DNA of 60,811 nt from Clostridia bacterium (GTDB lineage: Bacteria; Bacillota; Clostridia; UMGS1883; UMGS1540). The position numbers were made by a program, and so were the translations under genes. Numbering within the stretch: the stretch's first letter is position 1; every line of letters starts with the position of its first letter. The stretch is taken from NCBI GenBank assembly GCA_017450025.1, contig JAFSYJ010000012.1, positions 1 through 60,811 on the forward strand, read 5' to 3'. The notes beneath the pieces were generated by a model. It had not been told where the DNA came from. It worked only from the letters and a program-made list of their open reading frames with translations, and made no database searches. Below are positions 50,393 through 60,616 of this stretch, piece by piece.

Positions 50393-50711
50393 AAATCTCG
50401 CCTCCTAAAAATATTTTCCGTTTATACGGTATGTTACTGACACGCCGACAGACGAGAAATTACTGTACACAGTGCCGTGTGTATCACGCACATCAATTTA
50501 AAAACCCAAAATTACACAAATGTAACCTCGGGCACAAAAGAAGCCTGGCAGGACTTATATGCCGTAGAAATAAGCACACAGTATCCCATCCTATGCTACC
50601 ATCGTACAGTGACTGTCGCCCAATTTCAAGAATCGGACATTCTCCACGGAAAAACCCGAAATACCTTCGGCAACCTCCCGCTTCATCGTATGTCATGTCA
50701 CAGCAGATGAT
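50393..50711 (-). promoter_or_regulatory. Long 5' leader of the S10 operon
   Basis: The 440-bp stretch 50393-50832 has no gene I can support. From the promoter at 50712-50740 about 310 nt would be transcribed before rpsJ. It contains many short inverted repeats, such as ACTGT/ACAGT pairs near 50606-50618, the palindrome ACTGTACACAGT near 50463 and CCGT/ACGG just before the ribosome site. GC content is higher than in the flanking spacer, which suggests a conserved structured leader for autoregulation. A 67-codon open frame inside it (50493-50696) has no ribosome site. Confidence 0.5.
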
Positions 50712-60306: not shown

Positions 60307-60498
60307 CCGAACGGTTTAGATGTAGCATCTTAGCTGAATTTTGCACTTCGTGCAAAGCGAAATATTTGCTTTGCAAATGTGAAATTAAAAACCTACGGTT
60401 TTAAGCCAAATTAAATTCGCCAAATAGCGTGCGAAGCACATTTAGCTGCCATAGGCATTTTAGCTGTGCTTGCACAATTTAACTCGCCGTCAGGCGAA
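60307..60498. repeat. Array of about eight tiny hairpins with ATTTAGCT-like linkers
   Basis: Successive perfect stems: CCG/CGG (60307), AGATG/CATCT (60318), TTTGCAC/GTGCAAA (60340), ATTTGC/GCAAAT (60364), AAAACC/GGTTTT (60388), GTGC/GCAC (60429), TGCC/GGCA (60447), TGTGC/GCACA (60465), TCGCC/GGCGA (60484). The loops are 2-4 nt. Several spacers read (A)TTTAGCT or a close variant. No open frame. It fills the gap between the XRE gene and the tRNA cluster. Confidence 0.7.
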
Positions 60499-60505
60499 TT
60501 TAGCT

Positions 60506-60540
60506 AAAAAAAACGCCTTGTCGAAACAAGTCGTTTTTTT

Positions 60541-60541
<1 letters not shown>
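60506..60541 (-). terminator. Terminator of the tRNA cluster
   Basis: CTTGT/ACAAG with a CGAA loop, extended by AAACG/CGTTT past one mismatch, lies between A8 and T8 runs. It abuts the 3' end of tRNA-Phe. Confidence 0.88.

Positions 60542-60616
<75 letters not shown>

Follow-up and report, generated by a model that had tools for sequence, protein, structure and literature searches.

The window, the whole stretch of 60,811 nucleotides that was analysed, carries a Val-Asp-Phe tRNA cluster that is followed by an array of small hairpins. The gene that precedes the array is tRNA-Phe (60541 to 60616, minus strand, by tRNA gene call; the reported gene takes in position 60541). Directly behind its CCA lies a hairpin with A- and T-tracts (60506 to 60541, minus strand, from sequence and fold), the arms of which are 60506-60521 and 60526-60541. 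This hairpin may be the terminator of tRNA-Phe or the element's own 5' hairpin; similar hairpins recur behind different tRNAs, yet resemble ordinary terminators. Its last T is the first base of the array.

The array spans 60333 to 60505 and is a solo copy without an IVP gene, as established by alignment and by the match of its left half to a covariance model (model R1, see below). In the sequence it is clearest on the minus strand, where four hairpins with AGCTAAAT linkers are followed by a long-range stem and by three longer hairpins with the reverse-complement linker. Read from 60505 down to 60333, this strand consists of AGCTAAATTCGCC, hairpins with AGCTAAAT-like linkers, GGCGAATTTAATTTGGC and the three longer hairpins with ATTTCAC or ATTTCGC between them. 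An earlier sequence-only reading had reported a row of miniature hairpins with a repeated linker at 60307-60498. The row is real, with seven small hairpins within 60340-60497 and two tiny palindromes in the tail (z -6.7 for the fold). The linker is found on the plus strand as ATTTAGCT in 60423-60505, but stands as its reverse complement (GCGAAAT/GTGAAAT-like) in 60333-60411, and the span needs correction at both ends, as its start takes in the tail (60307-60329) and the natural boundary lies at 60505.

On the minus strand, the first hairpin, h1 (60484 to 60497, TCGCC-TGAC-GGCGA, from sequence and alignment), has its 5' arm in common with the long-range stem P1, which is seen in fold and covariation. 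The 5' arm of P1, TAAATTCGCC (60493 to 60502), pairs with GGCGAATTTA (60412 to 60421), 71 nt off, and also with the neighbouring GGCGA of h1, and the two pairings are therefore mutually exclusive. The left half continues with h2 (60465 to 60476, covariation helix 2), in which two-sided changes are found at five of the six pairs across the family, h3 (60447 to 60457, helix 3), one pair of which occurs in all four Watson-Crick types with five sequences each, and h4 (60429 to 60439, helix 4). The right half, with the reverse-complement linkers, holds the hairpins R1 (60385 to 60404, from alignment and covariation helix 5), R2 (60364 to 60378) and R3 (60340 to 60356), the latter two from sequence and alignment. 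Most loops are triloops, TNC in the left half and GNA in the right half, and because of this an initial reading of them as UNCG/GNRA tetraloops was dropped.

The 3' tail, GATGCTACATCTAAACCGTTCGG, with its two tiny palindromes (60307 to 60329, minus strand, from sequence), includes a motif of about 20 nt, TGCATCTAAACCRTTCGG, at 60307-60323. This motif is frequently found just 3' of arrays and is also scattered by itself in the window's genome (G000:C9, L010 at 4712, 12426, 12619 and 12809; also L254, L256, L260 and L262); it occurs behind 4 of the 30 best Gut-1 loci described below and at four array-free places in the window's genome. An Rfam search gave no match over threshold at the array. 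Elsewhere in the window, an S10-Clostridia ribosomal protein leader (RF03136) lies at 50613-50695 on the minus strand.

Pairing across the array family

The plus strand of the array folds at -83.3 kcal/mol, compared with -57.0 +/- 3.9 for shuffles (z -6.7), and the minus strand reaches z -3.9 against its shuffles. In 20 arrays of the same linker class as the window, standard pairs fill 94.7% of the pair cells. Two-sided compensating cells number 138 in this set, compared with 37 after shuffling and 6-29 after sliding, and the covariation is 0.445 versus 0.118 shuffled and less than 0.07 slid. The compensating-cell count owes nothing to the long-range stem, which the search had fixed. Across the family, the stems change on both sides while the pairing is kept, as had been supposed from the window's sequence. 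Covariation for linker-linker pairing between the halves, assessed in the GTGATAT class, is not significant.

In a larger set of 79 arrays, the segments between linkers are palindromes. Stems of at least four pairs are present in 69% of left segments (9% shuffled) and 86% of right segments (15% shuffled), with 75 distinct sequences on the left and 124 on the right. The stem pairs comprise 936 Watson-Crick, 6 G-T and 3 A-C positions, and G-U accounts for 6 of 954 positions; ordinary terminators of the same loci have 3.3% G-T under a related, though not identical, scoring rule. The near absence of G-U pairs hints at copying on the DNA level. A copying mechanism had been suggested earlier, and it is plausible because the stems are almost purely Watson-Crick.

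Copies, Gut-1 RNA and the IVP gene

Further copies were sought in draft genomes, many of which are metagenome-assembled genomes (MAGs). According to these searches, the window's own genome contains another copy with 82% identity immediately after the tmRNA gene and the hairpin of that gene, and a third, weaker copy of another linker class on contig 36. The first array at the tmRNA gene is followed by a further one, truncated and with ATGAAATC-class linkers (L016, about 1707-1815, G000:C3), and this site has therefore been hit at least twice. A 5' hairpin, TTCGGCGCGG..TGATAAGGA..CCGCGCCGAA, has been observed ahead of two linker classes (G000:C36:77-184 and RUG14256 L035, L037, L046, L072 and L120). 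Two more genera of this family of organisms also have copies located behind tRNA or tmRNA genes.

A scan of species genomes with the core hairpin, using for the first sample a linker-neutral but stem-fixed pattern, gave at least 118 stretches. Nearly all of the matches listed are gut or rumen Clostridia MAGs; one bin holds a distinct GC-rich repeat, and the 20 pattern loci of CANRAS bin58, which are unrelated GC-rich CGCC repeats, were excluded. The same core pattern gave no matches in a scan of viral contigs, and thus no phage carrier was seen. Model R1, a covariance model based on the left halves of 16 arrays from outside the window's genome, matches the left half in the window with 114 bits (E 5e-25). 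Among 28 relatives, it matches in 13 genomes, with 18 matches in one, and it also detects the GTGAAAT, GTGAAG and ATGAAATC classes. Other families share the plan with very different linkers (GTGAAAT, ATGAATTG, TCGATAT and more). The array thus belongs to a repeat family, one of the possibilities raised in the sequence-only reading, which had named a unique and decaying array, or pairing that is not preserved, as grounds against its view; both were tested, and many copies and compensating changes were found instead. The inverted two-half plan, the relation to Gut-1, the IVP link and the insertion sites were not part of that reading.

In a permissive Rfam search, the left half of the array corresponds to Gut-1 RNA (RF01706), a noncoding RNA that Weinberg et al. 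2010 (PMC2864571) list as known solely from metagenomes of the human gut. The window copy scores 24.0 bits with its left half and 27.3 bits with its right half on the other strand; the gathering score is 50 bits, and the window copy is thus no Gut-1 member by the rule of Rfam. It nevertheless has the Gut-1 fold, an outer stem around short hairpins with repeated linkers, and in helices 1-4 of the left half 94-100% of the cells are paired. In a sibling genus, L021 scores 41, whereas same-plan relatives reach 51-81 bits, with 8 of the 18 array loci scanned exceeding the gathering score. Matches to RF01706 are found in 48 of 291 genomes of the class, with at least 15 per genome in several, and are often paired as adjoining plus and minus matches, which are the two halves of the array. 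The Gut-1 family covers half of the unit only, and its description, in the parts of PMC2864571 that deal with it, is without the inverted right half, the IVP gene and the insertion sites.

In complete copies, the array is followed by a 23S_rRNA_IVP gene (S23, four-helix-bundle), and this link is new here. About 11 of the pattern-found loci have an ORF whose start lies 150-230 nt past that of the array, and an IVP gene was found nowhere else in these loci. The ORF belongs to PF05635 (E 1.8e-27) and TIGR02436, and the structure of a relative has been solved (2RLD). When the 30 best Gut-1 loci are taken, with one from each genome, 6 have an IVP HMM match 109-169 nt downstream on the same strand. 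The reverse test set out from 58 IVP genes that had been identified in relatives and in the class from the protein alone: an inverted-linker score of at least 5 is seen upstream in 22 of them, a few of which are plain tandem ATTCATT linkers without hairpins, versus downstream in one. At several IVP genes of other Clostridia (L141-L154) the array is absent.

The linkers ahead of IVP genes include GCTAAAT, GTGATAT, GTGAAG, GTGAAAT, ATGAATT, TCGATA and ATGAAG, and despite these changes the geometry is constant, with about four linkers, then the outer stem, then reversed linkers, again about four. A tree built from 31 IVPs shows that the linker class tracks the protein clade (support 100/100 for GTGATAT, 97/88 for GCTAAAT and 100/100 for ATTCATT), while the clades cover several host families; therefore, array and gene are inherited together and appear to move as a unit. 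As raw counts without a shuffle control, the labels on the tree change 14 times for linker and 17 times for host family. One genome (G159) holds three linker classes. In the sibling genome G005, the tmRNA gene is followed by a hairpin, an array and an IVP gene, and at the same tmRNA site of the window's genome there is an array without an IVP gene, together with what is left of another array that belongs to a different class.

Behind tRNA terminators, an IVP element of a second type has been observed (G000:C9:18074-18388, L178; also L159, L168, L176, L194 and L242). It consists of a terminator X-loop-X', ATTCATT-like linkers in tandem but with no hairpins, X' once more, reversed linkers and the IVP gene. 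Mostly, X and the second X' are perfectly paired and the pairing within the terminator includes a G-U.

Insertion sites and explanations

A tRNA gene on the same strand precedes 9 of the 104 pattern-found arrays, with the hairpin starting 0-1 nt behind the CCA, and none of the 104 lies behind a tRNA gene on the opposite strand. Of the best Gut-1 loci, 14 of 30 start no more than 60 nt past the end of a tRNA or tmRNA gene, and these genes are of many kinds. Behind tmRNA, three linker families of arrays are found in four related genomes and none in others. In G001 and G078, the Val-Asp-Phe cluster known from the window goes on with Gly-Cys and has no array; behind tRNA-Cys there is an array in G005 and a tandem-type element in G002. 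In addition, a structured sequence of about 230 nt that repeats the tmRNA or tRNA 3' end, GAGGGGAGTYGAACCCTGAGAGGGC ... CTCCCCTCGCCTCCACCA, has been observed behind tmRNA (L200, L203 and L212) and upstream of an array (L013/L135), and it has the appearance of a further small element located at the 3' ends of tmRNA.

Intrinsic terminators are the other host. Solo copies, together with their own 5' hairpin, lie between terminator arms, for example AAAGAAACATCGGC ... GCCGATGTTTCTTT and ACCAAAAACCCCGAGC ... GCTCGGGGTTTTTGGT. For elements shorter than about 560 nt, six flush pairs of terminator arms scoring at least 12 were observed, compared with 0.13 expected. About ten solo relatives are inserted in a hairpin loop in this way, whereas the window copy adjoins an intact hairpin and sits in no split terminator. 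Behind an mgtE-like gene, so labelled from its sequence by eye, G003 has AAAAAGAACAGCCCC, the element and GGGGCTGTTCTTATTTT, while the terminators at the orthologous site are intact in G004 and G005. Inspection of the split terminators showed no terminal inverted repeats accompanied by a target duplication. Behind the mgtE-like gene at L231 (G005:C40), a duplicated terminator hairpin, ACGCGGATGTGATTTTCACATCCGCGT, borders a segment of about 300 nt that ends in ATTATTCATT repeats; this segment is possibly another element with a target duplication.

The array in the window is probably a solo copy, itself non-autonomous, of a mobile element of gut Clostridia that is coupled to the IVP and resembles rRNA intervening sequences. 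It has the two-half array and the inverted linkers, belongs to a multi-copy family and lies at a hairpin. The plan seen across the family is a hairpin, the left half with the Gut-1 fold, the right half with reversed linkers and, if complete, the IVP gene; from the sequence comparisons, we infer that the family is mobile. The IVP may recognise its own linker in the array RNA or in a folded single strand, and the resulting nucleoprotein may insert at hairpins of DNA or RNA, comparable to the position of 23S rRNA intervening sequences in the loops of rRNA helices. Solo copies such as the one in the window would be mobilised in trans by IVP made elsewhere. The stems probably stay perfect palindromes through hairpin-templated copying, which is proposed because G-U pairs are nearly absent. 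A further reading, which is offered tentatively, holds that Gut-1/IVP units are a transposable class without a classical transposase, in which the IVP would read the short, clade-specific linker that recurs between the hairpins of its own leader, the nucleoprotein would insert at hairpins (terminators, tRNA 3' ends and rRNA helices) and the stems would be rewritten in each round through hairpin-templated copying. If true, this mechanism would also account for 23S rRNA intervening sequences.

Part of these observations could also be explained by a MITE-like element that is moved by an unrelated transposase or recombinase from elsewhere, with the IVP as a frequent passenger. Solo copies do far outnumber IVP-bearing ones, and tRNA 3' ends, a usual recombinase site, hold copies. 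However, a passenger role would not explain why the linker tracks the IVP clade across host families, and no terminal inverted repeats combined with target duplication were noticed at the split terminators; we regard this explanation as unlikely. It is improbable that the array is a cis-acting RNA leader that controls the IVP gene through a bistable h1/P1 switch, similar to a ribosomal protein leader, and was scattered later by ordinary recombination. The array is indeed the 5' leader of the IVP gene in complete copies, one arm is common to h1 and P1, and Gut-1 was filed as a noncoding RNA (Weinberg et al. 2010). Nonetheless, most copies have no IVP gene, copies are also found inside unrelated terminators, and so few G-U pairs would be unusual in a structure selected as RNA.

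A host-useful structure behind tRNA operons, be it a transcription buffer, a 3' end protection or a protein-binding array, would fit the location behind tRNA and tmRNA terminators, but many relatives (G001, G078 and G152) have the same tRNA cluster or tmRNA and no array, and one site can hold different linker families in different genera. The buffer "ahead of the tRNA cluster" suggested in the sequence-only reading is not supported by position, as the array lies behind the cluster and past its terminator, nor by the same arrays behind other tRNAs and tmRNA, before IVP genes and inside unrelated terminators. This whole group of explanations is very improbable. Chance palindromes or an assembly artefact, for which the draft, metagenomic origin of the genomes and nothing further speaks, are refuted by hundreds of independent copies, the covariation and the z-score of the fold.

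The preferred explanation, an IVP-coupled element, links the orphan RNA family Gut-1 to a genomic setting, to a protein partner and to sites of insertion. It likewise opens a testable way into the old question of whether and how the IVP/S23 family mobilises intervening sequences, a mobility suggested by Ralph and McClelland 1993 (as cited in PMC4990558). A hairpin-seeking element for which no transposase is known would represent a new form of mobility. The arrays are common in gut Clostridia genomes, and repeat finders may miscall them.

Comparison with known systems

Searches of the literature on the mobility of IVP, on insertions into terminator loops and on hairpins in tandem yielded no account of the element. 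Closest among described systems is the rRNA intervening sequence (IVS) with an S23 gene, and the window copy is IVS-like but not an IVS. Intervening sequences in 23S rRNA with an S23/IVP gene are known from, e.g., Coxiella and Leptospira, and their mobility is proposed, not demonstrated, in the part of PMC4990558 that treats them. Both systems share the protein family PF05635, insertion in hairpin loops as in about ten solo relatives of the window copy, complementary borders, a patchy distribution and suspected mobility. In contrast, the hosts of the array family are terminators and tRNA/tmRNA 3' ends and no rRNA helices; the window copy lies behind tRNA-Phe instead of in a 23S or 16S rRNA helix loop and lacks the PF05635 gene that family members carry. 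To our knowledge, nothing comparable to hairpin arrays with class-specific linkers has been described for intervening sequences.

Other small bacterial repeats, such as MITEs, REP and BOX, are likewise short, palindromic, multi-copy and mostly gene-free, but the array consists of two ordered halves with inverted linkers and stems that change yet stay paired, and it is tied to the IVP and not to a known transposase. Terminator hairpins also serve as insertion sites for group IIC introns, which integrate behind them, but no reverse transcriptase or intron core (the latter searched with Rfam) was seen in the array loci read. The Avd protein of diversity-generating retroelements (DGRs) is a four-helix-bundle protein homologous to PF05635 (PMC10053308), but neither a DGR reverse transcriptase nor a template/variable repeat pair was noticed. 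The constant repeats of about 24-50 nt, unique spacers and cas genes of CRISPR systems are not what is found here, where the linkers are 7-8 nt and the "spacers" palindromic, in line with the earlier statement that this is no CRISPR array. As for the protein family, a figure of CRISPR adaptation associations in the FLSHclust paper includes 23S rRNA IVP.
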